This document shows positions 2,905 through 25,899 of a DNA stretch of 27,255 nucleotides, piece by piece; within the stretch, counting starts at the first letter, position 1, and each line of letters starts with the position of its first letter. Source of the stretch: a virus. Location of the stretch: positions 1-27,255 of the IMG/VR virus record IMGVR_UViG_3300028548_005857; one strand, given 5' to 3'. Made by a program: the position numbers and the translations under genes. The notes beneath the pieces were generated by a model. The model had not been told where the DNA came from. It ran no database searches and saw only the letters and a list, made by a program, of their open reading frames with translations.

Positions 2905-3572
2905 CAACCTACCCCGTAATAATCAAAATGGGGGGCAACATTAAAAGAGGCTCTGTCTCTATCCTCTACCGCAGCTCTTTCAAACTCTTCTTCATACACA
3001 CCTTTTAACATCTCGACACGGTTTGGAGCACGTTTTAACGCAATATAGTAAGCTAACCCTGCGGCTAAACAAGGGTAGAACCTAAAAGGTAAGTCTAAGG
3101 TGTTAATATAGGTGTCGGCGTCGTCCATGCGCGTTAAAGCATCATAATAAACAACATCGGTGCTATTGTCGGGGACAGGCCATAACTTCAAGTTAGGGGT
3201 AACTTGCCTGTCCAAAAAGAATTGATTAACGCGACCCTGGGTTGTTTTGTTTGGAATAGTGAGAAAGCCATCTCTACTCAAGCGCAATAACGAATAATCG
3301 GTACTATCCCGCTTAACGACCACGGACAAAACGTCAATAACGTCCGTACCAATAGCGTAGGCACCTGTTCCAGTAACCATCGAAAGAGTGCGCTGCTTGA
3401 TAGTCCACTGGTTAAGGCCGCGGTTTGCCCAGTCCGCCAGTAAAAGGTTTAAAGACCGCTTTGCAGATTTTAAATCATAACCTGCCCGTACTTCAAGACC
3501 GCACCGTTCAAAGGCTTCTTCGACATATTCGGCAACGTCTAGTTCAAAATCGGTGCTTCCGGATGTAGCCAT
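2904..3572 (-). CDS. Head-tail connector / tail accessory factor-like protein
   Basis: A 222-residue, largely helical protein. The N-terminal part (VEEAFERCGLEVRAGYDLKSAKRSLNLLL) resembles the start of P22 gp4-like tail accessory factors and related connectors, which bind below the portal. The middle carries KLWPVPDN and YYDALTRMDD, and the C-terminus a YYIALKRAPNRVEMLKGVYE helix. It opens the tail-completion operon after a 76-base gap following the cyclase gene. An AGGT lies 7 bases before the ATG. Connector is the best reading; the specific family is not certain. Confidence 0.65.
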   Translation of the reverse strand: MATSGSTDFELDVAEYVEEAFERCGLEVRAGYDLKSAKRSLNLLLADWANRGLNQWTIKQRTLSMVTGTGAYAIGTDVIDVLSVVVKRDSTDYSLLRLSRDGFLTIPNKTTQGRVNQFFLDRQVTPNLKLWPVPDNSTDVVYYDALTRMDDADTYINTLDLPFRFYPCLAAGLAYYIALKRAPNRVEMLKGVYEEEFERAAVEDRDRASFNVAPHFDYYGVG

Positions 3573-5433: not shown

Positions 5434-6542
5434 TAGCTACCTTGACTTATCTTTATGGAGCTGTTGCTTCCACCATTGATGGTTATCACCCTGGACACGC
5501 CGTCTTGCACAAAAATAATTGTATAGCTTCCCGCCTTATCTATGTCTATTCTGGTTGAATCGCTAACATTTCTTTGCAGAGTCAATATTTCTCCAGTCAT
5601 GAACGTGGTAATTTGGGTATCCTTGTCCTGCCCGAAGGTCGTACCAACAATTTTTACTGCGCCAGCGTCTTGCAGGGCGTCTTCTTGTTTAGCGACCTCC
5701 AGGGCGTCTAATACATTTAGCATGTCTTCTAAAAAATTTACGTCTAAATAGTTAATATCTAGCTCAGTAAACTCCCAATCACCCTCTGTCAGTAAATCCT
5801 CCTCTAAGTAATCTATGTCTAAATCATTAAAATCTAGTAGGTTAGCCGACTGTGTTGTTTGTTGTTCTATAAAATTTTCTTTTTCTTTTGGTGGCGAAAC
5901 AATAAGCATGTTGTCAATAAGTTCTAGCGTCAGGTCCAAAATAACGGGCGCAGAGGGTGCGGATTCAAACACTGATACAGTGGTAGCCTCATAAGGCTTG
6001 TTAAGAAGTACACTTCCCATTGCCGTGACCACTTCAATTTCACCGCTAGATAACCCTAGCGCATCCGGTAACAGAATAATAAGTGACCTACCCAGCTCAT
6101 CTACTGTCGCAGTGAACATCGTTCCGCGAATTGCAATATTTGCCGTTGGTGTACGAAGGGTGATGTTTTGCTTGGCAATCCTACTAAGGTTGCCGGTAAT
6201 GAACCTAGCTGTTCCTAGCCCAAAAGTAAGCGCCATCTTAGATTTAGAAGGATCGGGGTCGTATATGTATTCGTCTATTGTTAGCTGAGAATGCTCGGTC
6301 AGGCTGACAGTAGAATCATCAAGAAAAGTAATGGCCATGCGACCATTATGGGTAATAGCCTGGTCGTTACTTTCTATAGCAAAATTTACTTCTGCACTAT
6401 ACGGTTGATCTCTGACTATTTGCGCTTGCCCGTTTAACTCCGATACATCGCCAATATTAACAGCTTGTGCTTGTACCTTGGTCGTTTTGGGAAACGCAAA
6501 CAGTGCCAGCAGAACCAATAGAGGTAATTTTAAGCCAATCAT
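5433..6542 (-). CDS. Exported FecR-domain protein
   Basis: A 369-residue protein with an N-terminal signal peptide (MIGLKLPLLVLLALFAFPKT, cleavage likely after VQA at 25 or AQA at 27). Residues about 30-190 are a FecR-type domain: GDVSELNGQAQIVR, then AITFLDDSTVSLTEHSQLTI, LGTARFITGNLS and TPTANIAIRGTMF. A long acidic stretch (about 230-285) holds near-repeats of the form LDINYLDVNFLED, and a C-terminal beta region follows. FecR domains act in the periplasm, often with a membrane signalling partner; the cyclase gene that follows is the obvious candidate. The first 86 bases overlap the curlin-like gene in another frame. This start must be used because the signal peptide lies inside the overlap. 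No clear Shine-Dalgarno is visible. Confidence 0.9.
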   Translation of the reverse strand: MIGLKLPLLVLLALFAFPKTTKVQAQAVNIGDVSELNGQAQIVRDQPYSAEVNFAIESNDQAITHNGRMAITFLDDSTVSLTEHSQLTIDEYIYDPDPSKSKMALTFGLGTARFITGNLSRIAKQNITLRTPTANIAIRGTMFTATVDELGRSLIILLPDALGLSSGEIEVVTAMGSVLLNKPYEATTVSVFESAPSAPVILDLTLELIDNMLIVSPPKEKENFIEQQTTQSANLLDFNDLDIDYLEEDLLTEGDWEFTELDINYLDVNFLEDMLNVLDALEVAKQEDALQDAGAVKIVGTTFGQDKDTQITTFMTGEILTLQRNVSDSTRIDIDKAGSYTIIFVQDGVSRVITINGGSNSSIKISQGS

Positions 6543-7179
6543 TGTTTAGGGTGCTTTGCTGAGATATTGTAAATGTTCTATCACTACCCGTGTGATCCAA
6601 ATAAAAGTAACCTCCCGAAGATGCCGTGACCCCATCACCGTCATAGGTAACCGTGTTATCTGAGCCATCAATATCCATGTAATTTGTTGCTCCATCTATA
6701 TCAATATTAGAGGTAACCGTGTTATCCGAACCTTGAATTACCCAATCTAAATCAAGCGTTTCAGCTAAAGCGTTAACAGCCTGGTTTAATGTTATAGTAT
6801 TGCCATTGCCTGATACATCTACATTCTGGTCAGAGCTGTCTGCGCCGTAAGTATTAAGGGGGTCTACTTGAATTGTGAATGTATTGGTGTCTCCAGTGAA
6901 CTCATAGAACCCTGTGAAGGACTCTGCCAAAATATCGCCTAGAAATATATTGGTATCGCCAAGCATGTTTATATCCAACGTCATGGTTGCACCGTCTAAG
7001 TCAAAGGCGGTAAGCGTACCTGCTACTGATTGCAGCCCCCCAATGATATTGGATTGCCCCAGTTGTTCTAGGTCTATGTTTGCCGTTGCGCCGGACTGAT
7101 CAAGATAAATTTCATTATCCGCAGCTTGGGTGTTACCGCAAAGCATAATTGCACAAAATAGATTAATTAATTTCTTCAT
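6457..7179 (-). CDS. Secreted curlin-like (CsgA/CsgB-type) amyloid subunit
   Basis: A 240-residue protein with a signal peptide (MKKLINLFCAIMLCGNTQA, then ADNEIY) and an N/Q/D/G/T-rich mature part built of irregular strand-turn units such as NEIYLDQSGATANIDLEQLG, GNGNTITLNQAV, GSDNTVTSNIDIDG and GSDNTVTYDGDG. This matches the style of curlin repeats, which are exported through CsgG and polymerise outside the cell, though the spacing is looser than in E. coli CsgA. It ends CVSQNDQGTSTSC with a cysteine pair. The ATG at 7179 is preceded by GAGGAGG ten bases upstream; an in-frame TTG further upstream lacks this and would not begin with a signal peptide. It overlaps csgG by 17 bases and the FecR gene by 86. 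Confidence 0.78.
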   Translation of the reverse strand: MKKLINLFCAIMLCGNTQAADNEIYLDQSGATANIDLEQLGQSNIIGGLQSVAGTLTAFDLDGATMTLDINMLGDTNIFLGDILAESFTGFYEFTGDTNTFTIQVDPLNTYGADSSDQNVDVSGNGNTITLNQAVNALAETLDLDWVIQGSDNTVTSNIDIDGATNYMDIDGSDNTVTYDGDGVTASSGGYFYLDHTGSDRTFTISQQSTLNNDWLKITSIGSAGTVCVSQNDQGTSTSC

Positions 7180-7984
7180 GTGTCCAAAACCTCCTCTCGT
7201 AGCCAATATTTATTAATTCTAAGACCGCCCCTTCTACGGCTTTCATTAAAGAAATTGTCCCCGATTCATTTCGTGAATTGCCTAACTCTATTTCAATGAG
7301 CTCCCTTCCTCGCTCTATAAACTTAAAAACATCTTCGGATTGACCATAACTAAAAATGGTTTTCTGGCTCAACACTTCTATAAGAATTTCACCCGTAGCT
7401 ACCGACACCATCCGTAACGATACGGTTACGTTGTCTTCACGGTACTGAATGCTTTTTCCTATACCGAGGTATCTAGCACCTATCCCGCCCGTAGTCAAGT
7501 TTGTATCATACGCTATCACCGCACCCTCTAGCAATACTCCAGCAAACAACAGCGGCATCAATGTTTTTTTACCCTTATTGTTCTGCAATTGTTCTCGCGC
7601 TGAACGGATCAACTGTCTTTCTTTGGTAAGATTATCTAACCCCACACGCTCCACGACTCTAAAAAACTTCCCGTGACTGGCGTGTTTTAATGCTCTAATC
7701 AGAAGGGAAGAAGGTTGTTGGGTCAATGCCGTGGAGAACAGTGCAAACTCTGAGTTACTTTTGCGTTGTCCTGTTTGGTCCGTAAAAGAATTGGGATAAA
7801 CGGCAACAACAGGCATAACCAGGGGCGGACGGACGCCAAGCAGTTCTTTAGACTGCAACGCCTCTATTTTGACTACGTTGTTTTCTTCAAACCTTTGGTT
7901 GTACGTGTCCTCAAACTGTTCAAAAATTGAACAGCTAGAAAGTAAAAGAACCAATAGGTAAGCTAATTTCCGTAATATTTGCAT
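7163..7984 (-). CDS. csgG: Curli secretion channel lipoprotein CsgG homologue
   Basis: A 273-residue protein with a lipoprotein signal (MQILRKLAYLLVLLLSSC, lipid-modified Cys18). The body follows CsgG along its length: VVAVYPNSFTDQTGQRK, FSTALTQQPSSLLIRALKHA, FFRVVERVGLDNLTKERQLI, LEGAVIAYDTNLTTGGIGAR, YLGIGKSIQYREDNVTVSLR and SVATGEILIEVLSQKTIFSY. CsgG forms a nonameric outer-membrane pore that exports unfolded curlin subunits. Its first 50 bases overlap the end of csgF in another frame; the ATG is fixed because the signal peptide begins there. The full expected length is present, so this looks functional rather than a remnant. Confidence 0.95.
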   Translation of the reverse strand: MQILRKLAYLLVLLLSSCSIFEQFEDTYNQRFEENNVVKIEALQSKELLGVRPPLVMPVVAVYPNSFTDQTGQRKSNSEFALFSTALTQQPSSLLIRALKHASHGKFFRVVERVGLDNLTKERQLIRSAREQLQNNKGKKTLMPLLFAGVLLEGAVIAYDTNLTTGGIGARYLGIGKSIQYREDNVTVSLRMVSVATGEILIEVLSQKTIFSYGQSEDVFKFIERGRELIEIELGNSRNESGTISLMKAVEGAVLELINIGYERRFWTHEEIN

Positions 7985-8435
7985 CTGCGTCCGTTATTAT
8001 TAAGGTTATAAAGCCATTTTCACTAGCATAGGTAATCGTATTTCCCTCAAGCTCTATTGTTCCGCTCGTGCTTGGCGTTTCGCCAAACAAGTTTTCTACC
8101 AACTGGCGCGAGAGTTGTGCATAAATTCTGGACTCAAGGTTGCGAATAAAACGAGACAGGGTGGTGTTATTTTTATCACGTTCTACGGCTTCTAGTAAGG
8201 CCGCAACTTCCTCTTTAACAGATAAAACGCGATTAAATTCTTGGTTCTCAATCGTTAGGTAGTGGCTGGATGTATTGGTGCCACTAAATGAGGGCGACTT
8301 AAATCGGTGCGTGAGGGTGTCGGCTAGTGCTGCGCCTATTACCCCGTGCAATAATAAAACAGCCAAAAACGACAACCAAAACACGCCAACCCAATAGTGG
8401 AACTTTCGGTTAAATTTAGCTGTTTTATTCATCAT
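7935..8435 (-). CDS. csgF: Curli assembly factor CsgF homologue
   Basis: A 166-residue protein with a signal peptide (about residues 1-38, ending GAALA before DTLTHRF). The mature N-terminus THRFKSPSFSGTN matches the F-R/K-x-P-x-F-x-G signature of CsgF, the segment that in E. coli inserts into and narrows the CsgG pore. Downstream, LSRFIRNLESRIYAQLSRQL and FITLIITDADANITEISLPI match the CsgF core and C-terminal half. Several starts are possible; the ATG at 8435 lies inside the end of the preceding gene and no strong Shine-Dalgarno precedes it, so coupling is likely. A GTG at 8447 is an alternative. Placement directly before csgG supports the call. Confidence 0.9.
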   Translation of the reverse strand: MMNKTAKFNRKFHYWVGVFWLSFLAVLLLHGVIGAALADTLTHRFKSPSFSGTNTSSHYLTIENQEFNRVLSVKEEVAALLEAVERDKNNTTLSRFIRNLESRIYAQLSRQLVENLFGETPSTSGTIELEGNTITYASENGFITLIITDADANITEISLPIGSFTF

Positions 8436-8667
8436 TGCTTTGCTCACGCAATTTCAGCACCGTGTTGACTTTTTCTTGCAACCGTATCATGTCTTGATCT
8501 AACAACCTTAGTTGGTCGGTTAGCCTGATAACGGTGGTTTTCATGTCTTGAACAGCAGGACCGATTACATTGGTAATTGTTTGCCACACAAAATACACAA
8601 AATACCCAAGACCTATCACCATGATTACTGGAAAGCCAAACTCTGCAACCAGTTGTGCTATGTCCAC
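8425..8667 (-). CDS. Small membrane protein with coiled coil, holin-like
   Basis: An 80-residue protein with one N-terminal membrane helix (FPVIMVIGLGYFVYFVWQTI) followed by an amphipathic helix rich in heptad-like Leu/Ile (VIRLTDQLRLLDQDMIRLQE). It starts at a GTG sharing one base with the stop of the gene before it (TAGTG). The layout resembles BhlA/UviB-type holin-like proteins and also small membrane adaptor proteins. It is similar in plan to its upstream neighbour (AELGLPI / AEFGFPV N-termini), suggesting an old duplication. Whether it punctures the inner membrane or serves the curli cassette cannot be decided from sequence. Confidence 0.75.
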   Translation of the reverse strand: MDIAQLVAEFGFPVIMVIGLGYFVYFVWQTITNVIGPAVQDMKTTVIRLTDQLRLLDQDMIRLQEKVNTVLKLREQSNDE

Positions 8668-17891: not shown

Positions 17892-19049
17892 CTAATCTTC
17901 GGGTTTTCTTCCAAGAATTTTGTCATATTGGTTCCGTATAATGTCCATCACGGTTGGCGGTTCTGGTTCTGGTTCTAATGGTGCATCCCTGGGTATTAAA
18001 TAACGGGGGTCACCTTTGCCTTTTTCTCTCAAAAACTCAGCGAAATCTTCGTTGAACATCGCAAGCCCGTCAAGGTTATCGACTTGGCCCTCAGTTAACG
18101 GATCACCAAACGTCATGTCTCCTGTGTCTTTGACCAATTGCATTGCTTCTTCTAAGCTAAGCTTGGGATTTTCCTCCAGAAGTTTTTCAATAGCTTCAGG
18201 GTTAGGCCACCCTTTTCCACTATCCATCGCCTTTTCTAGTAGGCTAGTAAGGCCATGCCCCTCCCCCGCGTCTTTATAAATCTTAGCGAGAGCGTGTGGT
18301 GCGCCATGGGCGCCCAGCGTTGAAGCATAGTCATCATAGGACTCCCGGATCTCAGGGGAGGACGACTGCCTGTGCAGGAGTTCATGCATCACAGCCGCTC
18401 CGGGAGAGCGAGATGTCTCGGGAGAATGCACGTTCAGCCTTGGATCATTAAAAGGCAGGCCTTGTTGAAAATAAATGCTGTCCGGCCTAAGGGAGCCTGG
18501 TCCCTCAACCGTCGTGGAGGCAAGATTCTTGTATTGTTTGTTGATTTTCTCAAAAAGTTCCTCTTCTCCTAAACTTCCTATGCCCTGCTCTGTTTCGGGG
18601 GGGTTAACATACACGCCTAAAAAAGTTGAACGAGGGTTCTCCCTGTCGAGGTAAAGTGTGTCGGCGGTGTCTACCATAGCGGTACCGCCAGGCCTGTAAG
18701 GGTGATGCCCAAAGGTGCGTATGTCCGCCATACGGTCTTTGTTGAAAGGGACGCCGCCAGTACGAGCAAGATAAGACGGAAGTCCGTACTTGCCGCTAAA
18801 TCTAAAATCCTCGGGGAGTTGCCCTTGGAGATCGACCATCATCTCAAGATCGGCTAAACTGTTAAACTCCGTCTTACGACGTTCCGCCTCAATACGCAAC
18901 TGCTCCTCTTCCGGCAACTGATTGAAAGCGGCTTGGGATTCTTCTGATGTAACAGCGCCGCCGTTGTCGAAATACGAAACAAGGCCTGCCTGCGGAAAGC
19001 CGCCTGCACCTAGATTAACTGCCGGACTATACTGTCCCGCTTGCGCCAT
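17892..19049 (-). CDS. Putative HExxH zinc metalloprotease-like protein
   Basis: A 385-residue protein between the large terminase and portal genes. It carries AAVMHELLHRQSSS (HExxH at about 222-226), the zinc-binding signature of many metallopeptidases; which downstream residue would be the third ligand is not clear. The N-terminus (MAQAGQYSPAVNLGAGGFPQ) is low-complexity and Gly-rich, and the C-terminus is acidic. The start is set at the ATG at 19049 because GGGGGG is seven bases upstream; an ATG five codons earlier at 19064 has none. A head-maturation or prohead role would fit the position but is not shown. The family is not recognised. Confidence 0.65.
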   Translation of the reverse strand: MAQAGQYSPAVNLGAGGFPQAGLVSYFDNGGAVTSEESQAAFNQLPEEEQLRIEAERRKTEFNSLADLEMMVDLQGQLPEDFRFSGKYGLPSYLARTGGVPFNKDRMADIRTFGHHPYRPGGTAMVDTADTLYLDRENPRSTFLGVYVNPPETEQGIGSLGEEELFEKINKQYKNLASTTVEGPGSLRPDSIYFQQGLPFNDPRLNVHSPETSRSPGAAVMHELLHRQSSSPEIRESYDDYASTLGAHGAPHALAKIYKDAGEGHGLTSLLEKAMDSGKGWPNPEAIEKLLEENPKLSLEEAMQLVKDTGDMTFGDPLTEGQVDNLDGLAMFNEDFAEFLREKGKGDPRYLIPRDAPLEPEPEPPTVMDIIRNQYDKILGRKPED

Positions 19050-19071: not shown

Positions 19072-20523
19072 TTAATAATACACCTCTACTTTAACAGAGT
19101 TTTCGTCATCTTCCCAATCATCCGTGGGCAACTGCACAAAATTACCTTGGCGATAACGCATAAGCGCCTGAGTCATACTATCCACTAAATCGTCAAACTC
19201 GCCGTTTGGAAAAGCCGCTACCTCCTCAATAAGCTCTTCTGCCCAAGTTTCATCGGGGGCCCAGACCATTCCGGCTTCAAACAAGGGCGACACGCTATGC
19301 ACCCGCGTTATCTTATCGTTACCGCGACTTGGTGTAAAATTAACAACTGGTATGCCCTGCACACGTAATTCCTGCGTCAAAGGCGTTCCACTGGCTTTCG
19401 CCTCGACAATAACTGTATCAGGTTCCCAGAAATTATAAAGTTCTAATGCCACTTCCTTCAACTCAGGAAAATCCCAGCGCCCTTTTTTACTGTCCAATAA
19501 TATTAAATTAGGCCCGCTGCCCCCCTCGTTCGGATAAAATACCCCCCACGTCGTAATGGCAGAATAATCCGCCGTCTCGCGCTTGGAAAAAGCAGTATCA
19601 TAACTTTGGATCACATATTCCAATTGCGGGATCTTGGGGCTTTCCCACACCTGCCACCACTCCCGCTTGATGATAGCGCTTTCTTCGCCCGTGGGGTTTT
19701 GCTGATACTGCGCGTTCCATTTGCTTATGGGGATAGAAGCGCGGACCGCGGTCAAATCCTCCAGGCTCCAATACTCAGGCCAACAGGGCGTCCCGTCCTC
19801 GAAAATTGCCGGAAGCTCCACTACCTCCCATTGATCCGCTAACGGATCTTTAGCCATCGCCCGCAATAACTGGCCCGTCATATCCTTCTCCGACCAGCGC
19901 GTCTGAACGATAACTATCGAACCGCCCGGCTGTAACCGCTGACGGGGGCCACCCGTATACCAATCCCAAGCGTCGTCAAAACCTGCCGCCGACATTGCCG
20001 TCTGCTCCGAGTGAGGATCGTCAATAATAATCAAATCGCCGCCGCGACCCGCTAAGTTCGAGCCAACGCCCACGGCATAGTACATACCCCCAGAGCTCGT
20101 GTCCCACCGACCAGAAGCCTTGCTGTCCGCCGCCAACTTGACGCTCGGAAATACCTCCCTGTACTCGTCCGAGTCCAAAAGATTCTTCGTCTTACGACCA
20201 AAGTTGACCGCAAGCTCCGTCGTGTGCGTCGCCTGGATAATCTTCATCTTCGGGTTCTTGCCCATCATCCACGCCGGAAAAAGAAAAGACGCAAACTCAC
20301 TCTTCGTGTGCCGCGGTGCCATGTTGATAATCAAGCGCTTTAACTCGCCGCTCGCGACCCTTTCAAGCTTGTCCGCAATAATCTTATGGTGCCGCCCCAC
20401 AATAAACTCGGGCCACATGACTTTTACAAAATTTAAAAACTTTTTCCGGCACGTCTCGTTTTTCTCAAGGTGCGCGAGCCGTAGCTCAAGTTTTAACTTC
20501 TTGTCGTCAATCGCTACATCCAT
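19072..20523 (-). CDS. terL: Terminase large subunit
   Basis: A 483-residue packaging motor. The ATPase domain has a Walker A-like APRHTKSE (69-76), Walker B LIIIDDP (164-170) and a coupling segment VIVQTRW (204-210). The C-terminal RNase H-like nuclease has D309 (SYDTAF), E374 (VIVEAKA) and D444/D445/D448 (FDDLVDS). TerL pumps DNA into the prohead and cuts it. AGGA is six bases before the ATG. Unusually, the small subunit gene is about 4.7 kb upstream, separated by moron-like units. The last residues lie seven bases from an alternative start of the HExxH gene. Confidence 0.95.
   Translation of the reverse strand: MDVAIDDKKLKLELRLAHLEKNETCRKKFLNFVKVMWPEFIVGRHHKIIADKLERVASGELKRLIINMAPRHTKSEFASFLFPAWMMGKNPKMKIIQATHTTELAVNFGRKTKNLLDSDEYREVFPSVKLAADSKASGRWDTSSGGMYYAVGVGSNLAGRGGDLIIIDDPHSEQTAMSAAGFDDAWDWYTGGPRQRLQPGGSIVIVQTRWSEKDMTGQLLRAMAKDPLADQWEVVELPAIFEDGTPCWPEYWSLEDLTAVRASIPISKWNAQYQQNPTGEESAIIKREWWQVWESPKIPQLEYVIQSYDTAFSKRETADYSAITTWGVFYPNEGGSGPNLILLDSKKGRWDFPELKEVALELYNFWEPDTVIVEAKASGTPLTQELRVQGIPVVNFTPSRGNDKITRVHSVSPLFEAGMVWAPDETWAEELIEEVAAFPNGEFDDLVDSMTQALMRYRQGNFVQLPTDDWEDDENSVKVEVYY
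20428..20452. repeat. Repeat copy 1, inside the terL 5' end
   Basis: A 25-base segment coding CRKKFLNF of TerL is repeated with one mismatch at 20557-20581 in the upstream leader. Weaker similarity continues for about 25 bases on the right side of both copies (GGTGCGCG). This suggests a local duplication of the start of terL. Confidence 0.75.
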
Positions 20524-20581: not shown

Positions 20582-20610
20582 AACTCTTTTGGTGCGCGGT
20601 CTTTTATAAA

Positions 20611-20626
20611 TGTTCCACGTGAAACG
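20611..20626. promoter_or_regulatory. parS-like palindrome
   Basis: TGTTCCACGTGAAACG differs by one base from the chromosomal parS consensus TGTTCCACGTGAAACA bound by ParB. It is centred on CACGTG and lies about 21 bases downstream of the -10 of the terL promoter, so it could act as a ParB-type site or as an operator for a repressor. No parB-like gene is in the window. Confidence 0.55.
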
Positions 20627-20646
20627 TTCCGCGGCTCACGGTACGT

Positions 20647-20652
20647 ATTATA
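20647..20652 (-). promoter_or_regulatory. Promoter -10 element upstream of terL
   Basis: A perfect TATAAT on the minus strand, about 125 bases before the terL ATG. The -35 (CTTATA or TTATAT) is weak. The spacer holds ATCGCATA, which is also found in the spacer of the three repeated promoter modules further right, suggesting shared control. Confidence 0.45.
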
Positions 20653-20833
20653 TGCGATATTACACGCTAATATAAGACAGTTAAAGCTCGTTTAAAAAAA
20701 CAGGTAACTATTTGAGAGAAACATGGCTCTAGCCCCCGTCTGGAAAAAAAGGCCCGCGCGAATTTTGGGACGCGATTTTTGGGATCTGGCCAAGGCAATT
20801 TGACCCGATAGGCAGGGGCCCCCAGCGATTGAT

Positions 20834-20935
20834 CGAGGTCCACGGTTCGAGGTCCGCGGCGCTGGCAACACGGACCCGGGGAAGAGTGCTATCACCTTGT
20901 CCGCGGTCCACGGCCCACGGCCCACGGTTCGCGAG
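20834..20935. repeat. GC-rich degenerate short repeats (GGTCCACGG type)
   Basis: Units such as GGTCCACGG, GGTCCGCGG, GGCCCACGG and CCACGGTTCG recur about eight times in 100 bases in a region much richer in GC than its surroundings. Function unknown; it may be a remnant of foreign DNA or a set of binding sites. Confidence 0.5.
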
Positions 20936-21001
20936 CCTGTACGTTTGAGCCATGGCCCGGGAGGCCCGGCCCGGAGTGATGCACTGGATTAAACCGAGGG
21001 C

Positions 21002-21026
21002 AAAAAAAAGCCCGCACGTGGCGGGC
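21002..21026 (-). terminator. Intrinsic terminator of moron unit 1
   Basis: On the minus strand GCCCGC and GCGGGC pair around a short loop and are followed by eight T. It lies about 24 bases past the stop of the 83-aa gene and ends transcription from the promoter at 21537-21566. Confidence 0.85.
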
Positions 21027-21049
21027 AAAAGGTGAGCGGTATTTAAGAA

Positions 21050-21301
21050 TCAGTACAGATCAGGAGCTATACTCATTCGCAGCGTCGCGACATAGTCGCC
21101 ATTAGGTAACATGCCGAAGCCTGATATAAGTGATGGCCAGCCCTGCTTAGTCGCGTAACGTTGGGCTAGTTGTTCGGCCTGATCGTAAATGTTCAACGAA
21201 TAGTCGAGGCCTTCGATCATGGTGCCCGCGCCCGTCCACGCTTTAAGCCTTGACCCTTTTGTATTGGTAGGCCCTAGATATTTTATTTGAATTGCTTTCA
21301 T
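21050..21301 (-). CDS. Conserved small hypothetical protein (83 aa)
   Basis: An 83-residue protein opening MKAIQIKYLGPTNTKGSRLK and ending in MLPNGDYVATLRMS. The N-terminal MKAIQIKYL-x-x-TNTKGSR-K pattern and the LPNGDYV motif belong to a widespread small protein on phages and plasmids that I recognise but whose function I do not know. It follows the 61-aa gene with a one-base overlap (TAATG), so the two are translationally coupled in one moron unit that ends in the terminator at 21002. Confidence 0.75.
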   Translation of the reverse strand: MKAIQIKYLGPTNTKGSRLKAWTGAGTMIEGLDYSLNIYDQAEQLAQRYATKQGWPSLISGFGMLPNGDYVATLRMSIAPDLY

Positions 21302-21486
21302 TATTGTTTAATCTCCATAGCTCGGCGTGTCTCTCCTAGCGCGTAACAATTATCCCCGTTGTAATATATCGCCCTATACTTTAATGCTTCAGTTTTAGAA
21401 GAATGGGTGGAAATAGTTGTCTCCCTGCATACTATTGAATAAGGGAAGTTTTTAACGCTGCCTTTGATAATCTTGTAAATGTTCAT
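21301..21486 (-). CDS. Small hypothetical protein (61 aa)
   Basis: A 61-residue protein, MNIYKIIKGSVKNFPYSIVC..., ending TRRAMEIKQ, with no recognised domain. A GGAG is placed 11 bases before the ATG and the promoter module PA lies 50 bases upstream. It is the first gene of moron unit 1. The sequence around its ribosome site (GGAGACTAAACAATTATG) is copied, with changes, in front of the following gene. Confidence 0.65.
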   Translation of the reverse strand: MNIYKIIKGSVKNFPYSIVCRETTISTHSSKTEALKYRAIYYNGDNCYALGETRRAMEIKQ

Positions 21487-21508
21487 AATTGTTTAGTCTC
21501 CATTAAAG

Positions 21509-21566
21509 GGCCAGCCCGTTGCCGACCGCTGAGCGTATTTTAGGCACAAGTATGCGATAATGTAAA
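21509..21566 (-). promoter_or_regulatory. Repeated promoter-leader module A
   Basis: On the minus strand TTTACA (21561-21566), an 18-base spacer and TAAAAT (21537-21542), followed by a 19-base leader segment (21509-21527) that can fold with G-U pairs. The same layout is seen at 22011-22068 and 23788-23845. It drives the genes at 21486 and 21301. Confidence 0.7.
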
Positions 21567-21584
21567 GCTGGCCTTTTATCAGGC

Positions 21585-21609
21585 AAAAAAAAGCCCGCAC
21601 GTGGCGGGC
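21585..21609 (-). terminator. Intrinsic terminator of moron unit 2
   Basis: GCCCGC/GCGGGC stem followed by eight T on the minus strand, about 20 bases past the stop at 21630. The sequence is nearly the same as the terminator at 21002. Confidence 0.85.
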
Positions 21610-21629
21610 AAAAGGTGCAGCGGGAAAGG

Positions 21630-21782
21630 TTAGTGTCCGGCGTCTACCAGCTCCTGTACCAGCTCCTGCGCTTTGACGTAAGCTTTGTCACGCTCTTCTG
21701 CCCGCCCACTCATTGCCATTAACCCCATAAATTGTAGCTGGAATTGGATCTTTTGCGCGGTCGTCTGCTCGGAATTATTCAT
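21630..21782 (-). CDS. Small hypothetical protein (50 aa)
   Basis: A 50-residue helical protein, MNNSEQTTAQKIQFQLQFMG..., ending VKAQELVQELVDAGH. The ATG overlaps the stop region of the preceding gene by eight bases and a GGAG lies about ten bases upstream. An ATG ten codons earlier would overlap more and has no better ribosome site. It shares moron unit 2 with the 71-aa gene. I do not recognise it. Confidence 0.55.
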   Translation of the reverse strand: MNNSEQTTAQKIQFQLQFMGLMAMSGRAEERDKAYVKAQELVQELVDAGH

Positions 21783-21990
21783 GATTAGACCACTCCGGAA
21801 GTAAGCCGCCAACTTGCGGCACGGATTGCCAACCCAGCTCTTTGCAGGCTTCCGTTATAAGGACGCCTTCCATATCAAAAAACTGCCCCTCGGACGTAAA
21901 AGTTAAATGCTCAACAGCTCTAAGCACATGATCTGCAATCTCCTGCTGGTGTGGCCCCATGTCGCAAGCTTCCATACATGTAATTCGCAT
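21775..21990 (-). CDS. Small hypothetical protein (71 aa)
   Basis: A 71-residue protein, MRITCMEACDMGPHQQEIAD..., ending GLLPEWSNHE, with no recognised domain. A strong GGAGGT stands seven bases before the ATG. It is the first gene after promoter module B (22011-22068). Acidic overall, with two N-terminal cysteines. Function unknown. Confidence 0.65.
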   Translation of the reverse strand: MRITCMEACDMGPHQQEIADHVLRAVEHLTFTSEGQFFDMEGVLITEACKELGWQSVPQVGGLLPEWSNHE

Positions 21991-22010
21991 TAGTCAAACC
22001 TCCATTAAAG

Positions 22011-22068
22011 GGCCAGCCCATTGCCGACCACTGGGCGTATTTTAAGCACAAGTATGGGATAATGTAAA
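22011..22068 (-). promoter_or_regulatory. Repeated promoter-leader module B
   Basis: TTTACA (22063-22068), 18-base spacer, TAAAAT (22039-22044) and the 19-base leader segment at 22011-22029, near-identical to module A. It drives the genes at 21990 and 21782. Confidence 0.7.
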
Positions 22069-22086
22069 GCCGCCCCTTTATCAGGC

Positions 22087-22113
22087 AAAAAAAAGCCCGC
22101 GATTAAGCGGGCT
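22087..22113 (-). terminator. Intrinsic terminator of moron unit 3
   Basis: An AGCCCGC/GCGGGCT stem with a six-base loop, followed by eight T on the minus strand, 18 bases past the stop at 22132. The 52 bases 22087-22138 match 22953-23004 with a single difference. Confidence 0.87.
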
Positions 22114-22131
22114 AAAATGACTCAACTGTGG

Positions 22132-22881
22132 TTATTTTTCCGCGCCAATATCCCCCGCCACGTGATGCCGCAAGATTGTACGCGGAGGCAGGCCCTTAAC
22201 AAAGCGGGTGAGCCTCTCGCCGTCGGTTTCGTCGGGCTGGTGGTGGTTGCTGGTGGCGTCCCAGTGTAGCCGAACGTTTCCGCCCGCGGCGTAACACCCG
22301 CCTTTGACGTCGGGATCGGCGGCTTTTTTCTTAGCAGCACCGTGCGCAGTAAATCCGATAATAAAGTTACGATCTAGCCGAGCGCATAAGGGCTCGCCGT
22401 TTCCACAATCGCGACACGTGAAGCCCTCGCGGTATTCTGCTGGGCATCTAACCACCGGGATACGATCCGTTTGAATAAAATCGCCGCGATCATTAGTTCG
22501 CCCAAATAATGGTGCGCTGGTTTTTTTCCTGTTATCCCACTCGGATTCCGGCAGCACTACAACGGTCGGGACCGCTCGCGATGCTGCGGCAGCACTTACT
22601 AAAGTATCCGCGGAAAAGTTAACCACCGTTTTATCCGGCTTTAATTTGTTGGCCCATAGATGCCAAGGGAAATGTGTATAGGTAAAAGACTGGCCCTTGT
22701 TCGGAACAGCACCTAACAACGCATCAAAATATTCGGCGTCAATTTCCTGCGCCCCTTTACCGGTGCAATTCATTTTGCAAGATGCCGGGCAAGTCCCATA
22801 CTTTTCGCCATTGCCTGCGCGGTAGGTTACTGCGATGCCTTTTGTCTTTTTTGCTCCGGACATTTCGACTGTTTTCAACAT
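22132..22881 (-). CDS. Cysteine-cluster phage protein, DUF/GP88-like
   Basis: A 249-residue protein with several conserved-looking motifs: YGTCPASCKMNCTGKG near the N-terminus, FTYTHFPWHLWANKL, VVNFSADT, VRCPAEYREGFTCRDCGNGE, KGGCYAAGGNVRLHWD and a C-terminal TILRHHVAGDIG. Cysteine-rich patterns together with CYA-G-N-R and H-x-x-GD motifs recall phage GP88-like proteins, but here the CYA...GD block is at the C-terminus rather than near the start. A metal or Fe-S site is possible. I chose the ATG at 22881, eight bases after AAGG, over a GTG at 22890. It stands alone in moron unit 3. Confidence 0.65.
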   Translation of the reverse strand: MLKTVEMSGAKKTKGIAVTYRAGNGEKYGTCPASCKMNCTGKGAQEIDAEYFDALLGAVPNKGQSFTYTHFPWHLWANKLKPDKTVVNFSADTLVSAAAASRAVPTVVVLPESEWDNRKKTSAPLFGRTNDRGDFIQTDRIPVVRCPAEYREGFTCRDCGNGEPLCARLDRNFIIGFTAHGAAKKKAADPDVKGGCYAAGGNVRLHWDATSNHHQPDETDGERLTRFVKGLPPRTILRHHVAGDIGAEK

Positions 22882-22922
22882 AATGATCACCTTTTCAATT
22901 GAACAGTTAATTACAGTGACGA

Positions 22923-22951
22923 ATAATGAACTAGTGTAACCAAAAAGTAAA
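22923..22951 (-). promoter_or_regulatory. Promoter of moron unit 3
   Basis: TTTACT (22946-22951), a 17-base spacer and CATTAT (22923-22928) on the minus strand, about 45 bases before the ATG. The spacer contains GGTTACACT, also seen in the GTTAC cluster upstream of the small terminase gene. It differs from modules A-C. Confidence 0.45.
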
Positions 22952-22952
22952 C

Positions 22953-22979
22953 AAAAAAAAGCCCGCGATTAAGCGGGCT
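22953..22979 (-). terminator. Intrinsic terminator of moron unit 4
   Basis: Same AGCCCGC/GCGGGCT stem and eight-T run as at 22087, about 25 bases past the stop at 23004. It belongs to the 52-base duplicated 3' segment. Confidence 0.87.
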
Positions 22980-23003
22980 AAAAGGACTCAACTGTGGTTA
23001 TTT

Positions 23004-23183
23004 TTATTCACCGTCATAAACAAAAGGTACTTTATGCTTAATGAGATATTCTAGGGCCGCTGTTTCTAGGGCCTCGGCAATCACGGCACTCCACTCATCC
23101 TCGGTAATGTTGTCAACAAATCCATGCGTTTCTGCAAAGTCAATAAGACGGTGAAAATTGACCGTCTTGTCGGGGCCGTTCAT
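23004..23183 (-). CDS. Small hypothetical protein (59 aa)
   Basis: A 59-residue helical, acidic protein, MNGPDKTVNFHRLIDFAETH..., ending EYLIKHKVPFVYDGE. The ATG overlaps the stop of the upstream gene by four bases (ATGA), which fixes the start; a longer frame upstream has no ribosome site. It is the last gene of moron unit 4. Function unknown. Confidence 0.6.
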   Translation of the reverse strand: MNGPDKTVNFHRLIDFAETHGFVDNITEDEWSAVIAEALETAALEYLIKHKVPFVYDGE

Positions 23184-23512
23184 GCGCCCGCCTTGTCCCA
23201 CGTTTCCGCCTCTTTTTCGGTCAAACAACCGGCGTGCACCCGGTGCGCCTTGTCTGAAAAAAGCCCCCCAAACCATTCGCCATACACCATGTCGGGGGTC
23301 ACATCTTCATCCATCCCTATAAGTTCCGGGCACCGATCACATTCCGTAGCCATGCATTCTGCGCAGGAATAGCCGTCTCGATATTCTTCCGTGCCATCTT
23401 CAAACTCATAATAAGTGTCGGCAGGAAGCCTGTTAACAAATCGTCCTGATCCCCAGTCGGTAGAGTGGTCGCAAAAAATGCATGGATACGGGTGTTCCAT
23501 ATACTTGTTCAT
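23180..23512 (-). CDS. Cysteine-rich, Zn-finger-like protein (110 aa)
   Basis: A 110-residue protein beginning MNKYMEHPYPCIFCDHSTDW. Cysteines occur as CIFC, CAEC, C-DRC and a final HAGC, with histidines nearby, enough for one or two zinc sites. The rest is acidic. The ATG overlaps the upstream stop by four bases (ATGA), which favours it over an earlier ATG. Proteins like this on phages are often small regulators or modifiers of host complexes, but nothing here shows the partner. Confidence 0.6.
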   Translation of the reverse strand: MNKYMEHPYPCIFCDHSTDWGSGRFVNRLPADTYYEFEDGTEEYRDGYSCAECMATECDRCPELIGMDEDVTPDMVYGEWFGGLFSDKAHRVHAGCLTEKEAETWDKAGA

Positions 23513-23763
23513 ACCTTGCTTTCCATGACCAGCCGGGCCTTTGGGTCGAACTCGAAATGATAATCTGTTTCCAACCACATCCACCCGCCGCTGGTCGAGT
23601 GTGGAAGAACAACTTCCACCATGTCTTCTGCCAGAATGTTCCCCTCGCGAATGAATTGCGCAATGTCCTCTTCTCCTGCGTCAAGGGGGACGTTTATGTC
23701 GAGGCACAAGTCAGTTTCCATCCTTGCATTTACCCGGACCGTTTTATGCGTTTTGCTGTTCAT
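23509..23763 (-). CDS. Small hypothetical protein (84 aa)
   Basis: An 84-residue acidic protein, MNSKTHKTVRVNARMETDLC..., with LDINVPLDAGEEDIAQFIRE and a Trp-rich GGWMWLETDYHFEF segment. The ATG at 23763 is preceded by AAGG about six bases away and follows promoter module C; a frame extending upstream runs through the promoter and is not credible. First gene of moron unit 4. Function unknown. Confidence 0.6.
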   Translation of the reverse strand: MNSKTHKTVRVNARMETDLCLDINVPLDAGEEDIAQFIREGNILAEDMVEVVLPHSTSGGWMWLETDYHFEFDPKARLVMESKV

Positions 23764-23787
23764 GATTAACCTTTCTCCCGGTGATGA

Positions 23788-23845
23788 GGCCAGCCTGTTG
23801 CCGACCCTCGGGCATATTATAGACACCGGTATGCGATAATGTAAA
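23788..23845 (-). promoter_or_regulatory. Repeated promoter-leader module C
   Basis: TTTACA (23840-23845), an 18-base spacer, a perfect TATAAT (23816-23821) and the same 19-base leader segment at 23788-23806. With the consensus -10 it should be the strongest of the three copies. It drives the genes from 23763 to 23004. Confidence 0.75.
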
Positions 23846-23864
23846 GCATTACCCGTTAGAACGT

Positions 23865-23890
23865 AAAAAAAGCCCACGATTAAGCGGGCT
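23865..23890 (-). terminator. Intrinsic terminator upstream of the moron array
   Basis: AGCCC/GGGCT stem and a seven-T run on the minus strand, similar in its loop to the terminators at 22087 and 22953. It would stop leftward transcripts coming from the terminase small-subunit side before module C. Confidence 0.75.
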
Positions 23891-23892
23891 AA

Positions 23893-24085
23893 ATTGTGGA
23901 TAAAAATTAATTTAATTTAATTTCGCTGGCGGCACAACTCACTCTTGGGGGCAAAAGTTGAGTTATTCACAGCCTTTCGCCCTATTTTTTACGGTGTCAA
24001 GTTTTTTTTCCACTACAGGGCCCTTGCCTTTCCGGCCCGAAAAGCCCTGTTTATGGGGGTTTCAGCCAATCCCCGCAAAGTCGAA
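23893..24085. other. Candidate replication origin / DnaA-box region
   Basis: No gene is seen. It holds a perfect DnaA box in reverse (TGTGGATAA, 23895-23903), another matching TTATNCACA (TTATTCACA, 23963-23971), an AT-only-like stretch between them (about 23901-23923), and an inverted repeat ACAGGGC...GCCCTGT at about 24016-24051. Two boxes flanking an AT-rich segment fit an origin, but may also be chance. A plus-strand promoter follows. Confidence 0.4.
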
Positions 24086-24094
24086 TGGTATAAT
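24086..24094 (+). promoter_or_regulatory. Extended -10 promoter for the plus-strand gene
   Basis: TGGTATAAT is a perfect extended -10. The -35 is poor (CCAATC at the 17-base position), as is common with extended -10 promoters. Transcription would start near 24101, just before the hairpin and boxA-like leader. Confidence 0.6.
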
Positions 24095-24103
24095 GGTGTT
24101 ATC

Positions 24104-24136
24104 GATCAGGTGTAATCTGATCCGTTCTTTAACAAT
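24104..24136 (+). promoter_or_regulatory. Leader hairpin and boxA-like antitermination site
   Basis: GATCAG (24104-24109) and CTGATC (24117-24122) form a perfect 6-bp stem with a seven-base loop. It is followed at once by CGTTCTTTAACA (24123-24134), matching 10 of 12 positions of the E. coli rrn boxA TGCTCTTTAACA. Stem then boxA is the order found in rRNA leaders. It would bind NusB/S10-type factors if functional; the palindrome could instead be an operator. Confidence 0.5.
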
Positions 24137-24178
24137 TCGGTGCAGCACCCTTTCTTAAATAAACTAGGAGACGCAATC

Positions 24179-24556
24179 ATGACAATCGTTAATAGCAAAG
24201 CACTAGACCCCGACTTATTCAAGGGCACTATGCCGGAAGAAGTCCTTCCGCATTTTAAAGAAGGCGAATATGAATGGTTTGTGCTAACCCCTAACTCTTG
24301 GGGTCGAAGTGAATCGTCTGAATATGAGGCTAGGAAAAATGCACTTTCATATATTGAATGGTCTTGCATAAGTTCCGAACGCAAGGAAGTTCCCGTAATT
24401 ATTTATCAAATTAAAGCCGGGTTAGACCTAGACTTAGACCGGTTTGATAAACTAAATTGGGAGGGCGATGATAGGGATATTCATAAAATAGCTAAAGTAA
24501 GATTTAAACGGCCCAAACGTGCAACAGGCTGGGCTTATGGAGCCACGTTAAAGTAG
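24179..24556 (+). CDS. Plus-strand hypothetical protein (125 aa)
   Basis: The only plus-strand gene. The 125-residue product starts MTIVNSKALDPDLFKGTMPE and is acidic with several Trp/Tyr, ending RPKRATGWAYGATLK. The start is fixed by AGGAG eight bases before the ATG at 24179; an ATG 13 codons earlier lacks one. It has a dedicated promoter, a hairpin/boxA-like leader and its own terminator (24568-24594), so it is an independent unit, transcribed opposite to the late genes. I do not recognise the family. Early expression or regulation is suggested only by the layout. Confidence 0.72.
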   Translation: MTIVNSKALDPDLFKGTMPEEVLPHFKEGEYEWFVLTPNSWGRSESSEYEARKNALSYIEWSCISSERKEVPVIIYQIKAGLDLDLDRFDKLNWEGDDRDIHKIAKVRFKRPKRATGWAYGATLK

Positions 24557-24567
24557 CCGCACGATTC

Positions 24568-24594
24568 AGCCCCGCTTCGGCGGGGCTTTTTTTT
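24568..24594 (+). terminator. Intrinsic terminator of the plus-strand gene
   Basis: AGCCCCGC-TTCG-GCGGGGCT, an 8-bp stem with a stable TTCG loop, followed by eight T, 12 bases past the stop at 24556. It touches the stop codon of the minus-strand gene on the other side. Confidence 0.92.
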
Positions 24595-24799
24595 ATCCAT
24601 AGTCTTTTTGTTCGCCCCTTTCAAGAGCTTCGCCGTATGCTTGGTGGTAGTCCAAGACCTGCTCGGCGGTCATATCCGCTTCGTCAACTTTTTGACCCTT
24701 TCCCGTGCCGTTCGGCCAAAAGTGCGGCTCGGGTAAACGGTGATACCAATAATCGGCGGCTCCCCTGTCCCCTGGTTGCCCGTGTTTATCTTTTTCCAC
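24593..24799 (-). CDS. Conserved small phage protein (68 aa)
   Basis: A 68-residue protein whose core, GDRGAADYWYHRLPEPHFWP, matches a short pattern RG-x-AD-x-x-Y-x-R-x-PxPH-x-x-P-x-GT that I know from many phages without a function. I chose the GTG at 24799, eight bases after AGGGG, because it places the conserved core near the N-terminus as in relatives; a TTG at 24838 has no good ribosome site. It overlaps the 36-aa gene by 14 bases. A structural or nucleic-acid role is not shown. Confidence 0.65.
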   Translation of the reverse strand: MEKDKHGQPGDRGAADYWYHRLPEPHFWPNGTGKGQKVDEADMTAEQVLDYHQAYGEALERGEQKDYG

Positions 24800-24896
24800 G
24801 ATTATTTCCCCTAGTTTTCCGCCTCGGTTTCTTTTCAAAACTATCTACGGCGTCCTTGCCATAAAGTAGAACTGCCAACCATTTGATTAAAAACAT
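24786..24896 (-). CDS. Very small basic membrane-like protein (36 aa)
   Basis: A 36-residue frame, MFLIKWLAVLLYGKDAVDSF followed by a strongly basic tail (KKPRRKTRGNNRGKR). It has a hydrophobic start and a clear GAGGGG five bases before the ATG. Its stop overlaps the GTG start of the next gene, so coupling is likely. Easily missed because of its size. A short membrane helix with a basic tail could be a holin-like or host-interaction peptide, but this is only a guess. Confidence 0.55.
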   Translation of the reverse strand: MFLIKWLAVLLYGKDAVDSFEKKPRRKTRGNNRGKR

Positions 24897-24941: not shown

Positions 24942-25361
24942 TTAGATGGGAACAATCAACTGAAACACACTTTCCCACTCGAAAGGCTCTTCGGTTTTAA
25001 AAACAGCGTCAACCTTCAGGCCTTGCATCTTTAAATCCATCGCGTCCCGCCCATGATGCAGAAAAAGACAAGCCGGATTATTCTTTGTGATCATCTTCAG
25101 GGTTAATACCCAGACGCTGGCGTGGCGGTGTTGAGAAAGCCATGCGACTTGATGCGGGCGCAACTCAACAGCGTTACCCTTAGTTGCCTTTAACTCAATG
25201 AAATGAAACCCGCCTGATTCATCACACAACAACACATCTGGGACACCCGGAGTCGCCCAAGTTTCAAGACGTGTCGCTGTCAGCTTCCTCGGGCTTTTCT
25301 TCAATTCGCTTTTCATCTGTTTCCAAAAGCCGCTTTCGCGCTTTGTTGCGATTTTGGGCAT
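24942..25361 (-). CDS. VRR-NUC-type PD-(D/E)XK nuclease
   Basis: A 139-residue protein beginning MPKIATKRESGFWKQMKSEL. The catalytic set is visible: E33 region (RLETWATPGVPD), D42 in PGVPD, and E56-x-K58 in HFIELKATKGN, followed by a conserved LRPHQVAWLSQH helix. This is the VRR-NUC/Holliday-resolvase-like core, which cuts branched or free DNA ends and may trim concatemers for packaging. I chose the ATG at 25361 for its GAGG five bases upstream; one at 25403 has none. It overlaps the end of terS by 98 bases in another frame. Confidence 0.85.
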   Translation of the reverse strand: MPKIATKRESGFWKQMKSELKKSPRKLTATRLETWATPGVPDVLLCDESGGFHFIELKATKGNAVELRPHQVAWLSQHRHASVWVLTLKMITKNNPACLFLHHGRDAMDLKMQGLKVDAVFKTEEPFEWESVFQLIVPI

Positions 25362-25899
25362 TGCCCCCTCGCGTGGCAACAGCTTCGATAGTGACTGGGG
25401 CATAACTATGTTTGATCTCCTTTAGTGCACTGAGGACTTCTTCTCGGGTCATCGAATCAATACTACCGTGTCTGATTTCAGATTTGCTAACGTAGATGTC
25501 CCCTTGCGCCATGCCCCGGCGATACTCTGCCTGAACCGCCGCCGAATACGCGCCGTTAGTCATCGCGACATCCCGAATGGTTTGTAAGTCCCGCAAATGC
25601 CGTTGATAGTTGACGCCGTACTTTTGATCTAACTCAGTCCGATACGCTTGAATTTGCGAGACAACGTGCGGACTCATGTGCGGGTTGGTCAGTTCGTAAG
25701 CACGTGTGTGTGCGCTTGAAGCGGGGTAACCGGCATTGATGGCAGCCTCCCGCATTGTAATTTGCCCGTCCTTGGAAACAAGTTCTTTAACAAACAGCTC
25801 TTGCCGCCTGGTTAAGGGTTGGGCTTTGTGCGCCTTTGGCCTACCCGCCTTTCGCGGAACAACCACCGGATCAGACTTTGCCTTGGTTTTACGGGTCAC
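25264..25899 (-). CDS. terS: Terminase small subunit
   Basis: A 211-residue protein with a basic N-terminus (KAKSDPVVVPRKAGRPKAHK) and a helix-turn-helix region LTRRQELFVKELVSKDGQIT...EAAINAGYPASSAHTRAYEL, a Terminase_2-type signature. The middle is helical and the C-terminus highly charged. It recognises viral DNA and loads TerL. It begins at a GTG with GGAG six bases upstream. Downstream of it lie the nuclease and small genes, then the moron array; terL is about 4.7 kb away. The upstream gap holds motifs it might bind. Confidence 0.85.
   Translation of the reverse strand: MTRKTKAKSDPVVVPRKAGRPKAHKAQPLTRRQELFVKELVSKDGQITMREAAINAGYPASSAHTRAYELTNPHMSPHVVSQIQAYRTELDQKYGVNYQRHLRDLQTIRDVAMTNGAYSAAVQAEYRRGMAQGDIYVSKSEIRHGSIDSMTREEVLSALKEIKHSYAPVTIEAVATRGGNAQNRNKARKRLLETDEKRIEEKPEEADSDTS

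Follow-up and report, generated by a model that had tools for sequence, protein, structure and literature searches.

A probable hypervariable accessory-gene slot with copied promoter-terminator joints between terS and terL of an HTVC023P-related podophage

Promoter early stem-loops (PeSLs) of T4-type phages are reported to be promoter-terminator joints that let units be exchanged, lost and moved (PMC4503421, citing Arbiol 2010 and Comeau 2014). Here we describe a comparable array of small genes located between terS and the large terminase gene, terL, in positions 1 to 27,255 of the IMG/VR virus record IMGVR_UViG_3300028548_005857; this whole 27,255-nucleotide stretch is referred to as the window, and all coordinates are its own unless another sequence is named. 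The window, a virus contig of 27 kb, encodes a portal protein related to those of the Pelagibacter phages HTVC023P and HTVC027P, phage DSL-LC04, and the Roseobacter phages CRP-901 and CRP-902. Portal and terminase tie it to the HTVC023P-type podophages and not to the T4-like myoviruses. The locus is very probably a hypervariable accessory-gene slot built from transcription cassettes that could be exchanged at or between joints of like sequence.

The likeness to PeSLs extends to composite joints of a sigma-70-type promoter and a stem-loop terminator between genes, recognized here at the sequence level, to the many similar joint copies among the small accessory genes of a hypervariable region, and to close relatives that differ by units at the joints, here by the accessory unit termed D and by recombinant alleles. 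In contrast, the lineage is podophage, a single terS–terL slot takes the place of the several plastic regions of T4-type phages, and the joint gains an additional part: most leaders carry a hairpin, a new feature whose loop is a conserved GGGCAA in relatives and which is sometimes followed by a boxA. Phage morons offer a second comparison, and the initial annotation had called the whole array a moron array. That label suits unit D best, which has its own promoter-like and terminator sequences and lower G+C, is present or absent between near-identical phages, and is the only unit seen inserted where a close relative has adjacent genes. It suits the DUF7227 gene, a core gene, badly, and the array differs from morons in being stacked with shared copied ends. 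Related records showed no sign of lysogeny; no integrase was found in 14 of them, mostly incomplete, so that the prophage-conversion sense of the word moron is not established here.

The array spans positions 21,010–23,890 on the minus strand and comprises four units of one to three small genes each. Units A, B and C follow promoter-leader modules at 21509–21566, 22011–22068 and 23788–23845, respectively, exactly where the initial annotation had placed them. Each module contains TTTACA, an 18-bp spacer, TAAAAT or TATAAT (TTTACA-18-TATAAT in module C), some 8–9 bp, a hairpin (21509–21527, 22011–22029 and 23787–23807) and then a ribosome site, and the predicted common 19-base leader, GGTCGGCAAYRGGCTGGCC, is present in all three. 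Apart from one 10/12 match inside a gene, no other site of the region matches a promoter as well. A direct-repeat search returned 101-bp copies at 21498–21598, 22000–22100 (92% identical) and 23777–23877 (68%), and a self-BLAST of the 4.4-kb slot paired the modules with E values of 4e-34, 6e-20 and 2e-13.

The terminators are likewise copied, as the initial annotation had noticed. Repeat and terminator searches located them at 21010–21026 (unit A), 22094–22113 (the DUF7227 unit) and 22960–22979 (unit C), the last being a near-copy of the one before it, and the unit B terminator (21593–21609) falls within 36 bp copied from or to the terminator region of unit A. All 36 bases are identical between 20999–21034 and 21582–21617, and only one base of 54 differs between 22086–22139 and 22952–23005 (E = 2e-18). 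Terminator searches placed a further one at 23871–23890, also on the minus strand, between the array and the neighbouring VRR-NUC/F3 genes. In total, five strong terminators were found on the minus strand and one on the plus strand, compared with about 0 in shuffled sequence; a looser definition gave 15 against 5.4.

The genes enclosed by these ends are small. Unit A (21050–21486, minus strand) encodes proteins of 61 amino acids (21301–21486) and 83 amino acids (21050–21301; phrog_3199, slot family F9, also in contig L014), while unit B (21630–21990, minus strand) encodes proteins of 71 amino acids (21775–21990) and 50 amino acids (21630–21782). The latter belongs to family F7, whose gene sits behind a different gene in L022, L027 and L036. 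Unit C (23004–23763, minus strand) contains genes for 84 amino acids (23509–23763), 110 amino acids (23180–23512; phrog_35699) and 59 amino acids (23004–23183; two alleles in the lineage). The DUF7227 gene (22132–22881, minus strand; 249 amino acids; Pfam PF23872, E = 1e-29) is the core gene of the slot. It lies between two near-identical terminators but lacks a copy of the promoter module, and no convincing promoter was identified for it; the claim of four units, each with its own promoter and terminator, holds for the promoter-like and terminator sequences of A, B and C, whereas the fourth unit has a terminator only. The G+C content is 41.5% in the unit D gene and 44.2% in unit A, compared with 50–53% in neighbouring genes; units B and C are no different from these.

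The end of the array had been set at 23890, but a further unit on the opposite strand, unit D (23891–24583, plus strand; 693 bp), lies beyond it and carries an accessory gene with its own leader and terminator. The gene (24179–24556) encodes 125 amino acids without a family match, and close relatives of it, as of one unit C gene, were found in the window's own lineage only. Its leader (24089–24134) consists of a -10-like TATAAT (24089–24094), a hairpin GATCAG-GTGTAAT-CTGATC (24104–24122) and a perfect boxA, GTTCTTTAACA (24124–24134). The promoter-like sequence is weaker than those of A, B and C, and terminator searches placed the terminator at 24568–24587 on the plus strand.

Metagenome contigs that are ~97–99% identical to the window differ in this unit. 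It is present in L084, L096, L106 and L116 and absent from L003 and L112, which have a common junction, and the presence or absence runs exactly between the terminators at 23,871–23,890 and 24,568–24,587. Where the unit is absent, the junction lies at the stems of two terminators facing each other, which have ~5 bp (AGCCC) in common. Unit D and the two alleles (a and b) of the 23,004–23,183 gene occur in all four combinations: D present with a in the window and with b in L106, D absent with b in L003 and with a in L112. Promoter C of the window has 11 differences from that of L003, L106 and L112, all within 96 bp (23785–23880), while the 250-bp bin at 23,500–23,750, just downstream of this promoter, contains no differences in L106 and L112; the promoter C type of these three contigs is nearer to promoters A and B than the window type is. 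Barring chimeric assemblies, the allele combinations and the promoter C patch indicate recombination in the population. A 33-bp insertion in L003 was considered as derived from elsewhere in the window, and this was dropped, the match covering just 13 bp. The DUF7227 gene is present in 4/4 sequences of the window's own lineage.

To extend the comparison, 20 IMG/VR contigs with terL proteins of ~85–91% identity and the isolates DSL-LC04 (59%) and HTVC027P (62%) were used; open reading frames in relatives were chosen mechanically, and all close and most distant comparisons are with metagenome contigs. The left anchor of the slot (24942–25899, minus strand) consists of terS (25264–25899) and a VRR-NUC-like nuclease gene (24942–25403), with weak matches to Pfam Terminase_2 and VRR_NUC, and these neighbours are the same at the slot edge in relatives having both ends. 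The last gene before the array, 24593–24838 (minus strand, TTG start), belongs to family F3, found in nine compared loci by clustering of slot proteins. The right anchor is terL (19072–20523, minus strand; phrog_38, E = 1e-111) together with its leader. Between the same anchors the relatives hold from 79 bp (L080) to 6.3 kb (L009), with mostly different genes. DUF7227 is found in 16 of the 20 distant contigs and in isolate DSL-LC04; among the loci without it, a GP88-family gene is found in L061 and L014, and L132 encodes a protein that matches DUF7227 weakly. The order of families is permuted: F1-F0-F2 in L004 and L009, F0-F1-F2-F4 in L029, L052 and L063, F0-F1-F4-F2 in L036, and F2-F0 in L008.

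Terminators exceed shuffled sequence in almost all IMG/VR relatives that have an array, and copied joints recur inside single genomes (L006, L008, L009, L029, L036, L050, L051, L052 and L063). Leaders of the unrelated F2 and F4 genes are 69–89% identical within a genome, whereas leaders of the same gene are at most 77% identical between genomes, and in 5/5 genomes with both leaders the within-genome likeness exceeds the leader's own best between-genome match. Since the leaders are alike within a genome and the genes behind them are unrelated, the joints evolve together within each genome. In isolate DSL-LC04, ACATACAGGAGAAA occurs four times in the same interval (L138 3406, 3637, 4226 and 5130), once with a mismatch, ahead of mostly unrelated genes, against 0.11 expected, so that copied leaders occur in a sequenced isolate too. 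RNA sequencing of HTVC027P assigned atypical expression timing to gp30, gp33 and gp34 only (PMC12753301). These three genes fall between terS (gp29) and terL (gp40), which gives independent, indirect support to the cassette reading.

In the mechanism we propose, a cassette would consist of a promoter, a short hairpin leader, a ribosome site, one to three small genes and a terminator. The joint of ~100 bp, a terminator followed by a promoter and leader, is present in several copies kept alike within a genome, and exchange at or between joints could add, drop, swap or reorder a unit. With joints alike and genes unrelated, such exchange would spare the expression of the other units and of the flanking packaging genes. 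The sequences show the copies, the unit present or absent between terminators, the recombinant allele combinations, the permuted order, the concerted evolution of joints and the structured leader in relatives. The copied promoters probably fire, the joint copies may serve as the recombination substrate, and the leader hairpin may affect elongation, stability or translation of the cassette's messenger RNA. The initial annotation had also set a test in advance, the alignment of relatives, and there genes were found to swap in the slot between conserved flanks, rather than a fixed gene set between divergent ones. Its proposal that the locus grows by recombination between copied ends is partly borne out: at one fixed site units come and go, swap and change order, and the joints evolve together, with the copies themselves as the putative route of recombination.

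Several observations weigh against the cassette reading. The one insertion or deletion read at base level lies at opposed terminators rather than at copied promoters. Low-G+C cultured pelagiphages show almost no such terminators in the interval, so that not every member of the wider group has the complete design. The empty slot of L080 shows that the units are dispensable there. In addition, likeness of leaders within a genome could stem from recent duplication or from selection for one regulator, and short repeats and strain mixtures in metagenome contigs can yield chimeric assemblies.

The leader hairpins, which the initial annotation had not mentioned, were analyzed in the window and in relatives. 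In modules A–C they read GGTCGGC-AAYRG-GCTGGCC, with a 7–8 bp stem (one pair longer in C) and a loop different from the GGGCAA of relatives. The folding energy of these three short sequences was no better than that of shuffled ones, so the hairpin claim for the window rests on the three copies together with the relatives. GGGCAA, counted without requiring pairing, is enriched in leaders; 21 of the 29 sites had a stem of at least five pairs, compared with 5/136 when these six bases stand in any other order (Fisher p ~1e-15), and stems were present at 21/26 when sites overlapping the ribosome site were excluded. Swapping of 3' flanks among the GGGCAA instances gave a mean of 4.2 and a maximum of 10 stems in 2,000 trials. 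In five longer contigs, leader-type GGGCAA hairpins occur mainly around terS–terL, with one further candidate elsewhere (G001 6571). A search of the window, L063, L036 and L009 against Rfam gave no match reaching the gathering threshold; below it, terminator regions matched the Trp leader model and there was a single anti-hemB match, all of which were set aside. In L004 (2082) and L022 (504; both slot coordinates), the GGGCAA hairpin abuts or covers the DUF7227 start codon, which would fit translational self-control.

One possibility, to which we give considerable weight while leaning slightly the other way, is that the hairpin is a general stabiliser of the 5' end of the messenger RNA or a translation-tuning element, kept alike by gene conversion and acting without a trans-acting partner. 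Its position agrees with this, directly after the -10 element and before the ribosome site in most cassettes of relatives, as does a stem that varies freely in sequence (19 different 5' arms) while compensation preserves the pairing. For such an element, however, the invariant GGGCAA loop, favoured so strongly over the other orderings, would be needless.

We consider it rather unlikely that the leaders are antitermination sites, at which a boxB-like hairpin and a boxA loading NusB/S10 would let the polymerase read through the next terminators and make the array one regulated relay. The unit D leader resembles nut/rrn antitermination leaders, its hairpin being followed almost directly by a boxA that agrees throughout with the published consensus GYTCTTTAANA (PMC5725501), which has 2 matches in the whole window against 0.25 expected. 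Upstream of terS in three relatives (G001 42893, G002 24924 and G003 11975), a GGGGC-GGGCAA-GCCCC or similar hairpin is likewise followed, after two bases, by the boxA-type sequence CTCTTTRACAAT. In rrn leaders, too, boxB precedes boxA (PMC10250234), which fits this explanation. Most array leaders, in contrast, lack a clear boxA: none of modules A–C has a perfect match to the consensus, and their boxA is degenerate at best. To our knowledge, the GGGCAA hexaloop is not among the known GNRA-like boxB pentaloops, which weighs against antitermination, and the AAYRG loop of the window's own array hairpins is different again. The array leaders also differ from nut/rrn leaders in being placed at many short terminator-ended units.

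The boxA leader upstream of terS, found at the three positions above and in L063 (2186), L050 (2335) and G005 (18085), precedes mostly unrelated small genes and looks like a second plug-in slot. Homology between the unit D gene and the gene behind the boxA in L063 and G002 was rejected (hhalign probability 0.3%). Tentatively, and with more doubt than confidence, we suggest that the leaders belong to a family of phage RNA elements not described before, a 5' hairpin with an invariant GGGCAA loop, a stem that covaries freely and sometimes a boxA behind it. The family would travel with the shuffling cassettes and bring any newly acquired gene immediately under common control, through antitermination or an RNA-binding protein; the slot would then be a plug-in regulon rather than a set of independent genes.

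The initial annotation had proposed the array genes as candidates for anti-defence or host-takeover functions, and the searches give this no support. PADLOC matched none of ten window proteins, and among the array proteins neither Pfam nor PHROG gave a match to a family of known function. It seems improbable to us that the genes are host-directed morons whose copied ends reflect repeated capture from other phages. Position, small size, poor conservation and gain and loss would suit such genes, as would the early-to-middle expression of HTVC027P genes in the same interval (PMC12753301). Besides the database results, the commonest slot families of relatives, DUF7227, GP88 and DUF932, likewise have no known function, and close relatives of unit D and one unit C gene were found only within the window's lineage, which speaks against this reading. 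An AlphaFold2 model of DUF7227 (mean predicted local distance difference test score 69) found no PDB match at E < 0.3, and a DUF7227 profile gave no match worth reading among PDB sequences. An anti-defence role of the array genes is put forward as a hypothesis.

Misjoining of repeats in a mixed population, which would create apparent gain, loss and exchange, is very improbable as the source of the pattern: the near-identical contigs are all metagenomic and their differences cluster near repeats, but two contigs of different samples (L003 and L112) have an identical junction without unit D, four others from several samples contain the unit, and distant lineages again show copies within one genome and permuted orders.

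The terL leader at the right edge of the slot (20608–20741, minus strand) comprises a parS-like palindrome and a conserved block. The palindrome, at 20608–20623, is a copy, with one base off, of parS, the partition site of bacterial chromosomes. The perfect parS (TGTTNCACGTGNAACA) lies within 200 nucleotides upstream of terL in 42/76 terL loci, with just two sites elsewhere in 733 kb; in relatives it is placed 43–108 nucleotides upstream, often as two sites 24 bp apart, and HTVC027P has a near-match within its terS–terL interval. Perfect parS is present in many other viral contigs too. A search of 14 related records yielded no ParB, and a literature search on phage parS before terL found no papers; phages with this arrangement possibly recruit or titrate host ParB. 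The noncoding block (20643–20741, minus strand) has the consensus GGGCCATGTTTCTC.CAAATA ... TTAACTGTCTTATAT and is kept in most relatives despite array differences; a promoter, a packaging site and an origin are candidates for its role.

Imperfect tandem repeats of ~7 bp also occur near terL or, in HTVC027P, elsewhere in the terS–terL interval; they lie in the window at 20829–20927, in L137 at 2189–2322 and 3082–3124, in L138 at 7440–7710, and at the slot ends of L011 and L051. The repeat unit differs by phage, being GGTCCACGG-like, GCTTGAG-like or GGCCGCT-like. A second variable spot lies between portal and terL (17895–18954), where most of the window's gene for 390 amino acids is swapped for a shorter, non-matching sequence in L002 and L106. 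At 3649–8447, genes for a CHASE2 adenylate cyclase, FecR, a possible curlin-like repeat protein, CsgG and CsgF stand in a row. This curli module is known from HTVC023P-type podophages (PMC9599517) and sits here in a phage of 47% G+C. A nucleotide search of phage isolates with the window gave no match. Four GTDB contigs were found in metagenome-assembled genomes named Verrucomicrobia (two), Planctomycetaceae and Maricaulis; these are possibly mis-binned, and no host is claimed.

The hypervariable slot would extend cassette shuffling via promoter-terminator joints, known from T4-type phages, to an unrelated and abundant group of marine phages. It names the exact site of accessory-gene turnover and with it a place to seek new host-interaction genes, and the isolates of the wider group, HTVC023P, HTVC027P and DSL-LC04, make the slot open to experiment. 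Should the conserved leader hairpin turn out to exert common control, the regulation of genes that a phage has only recently acquired would be explained.

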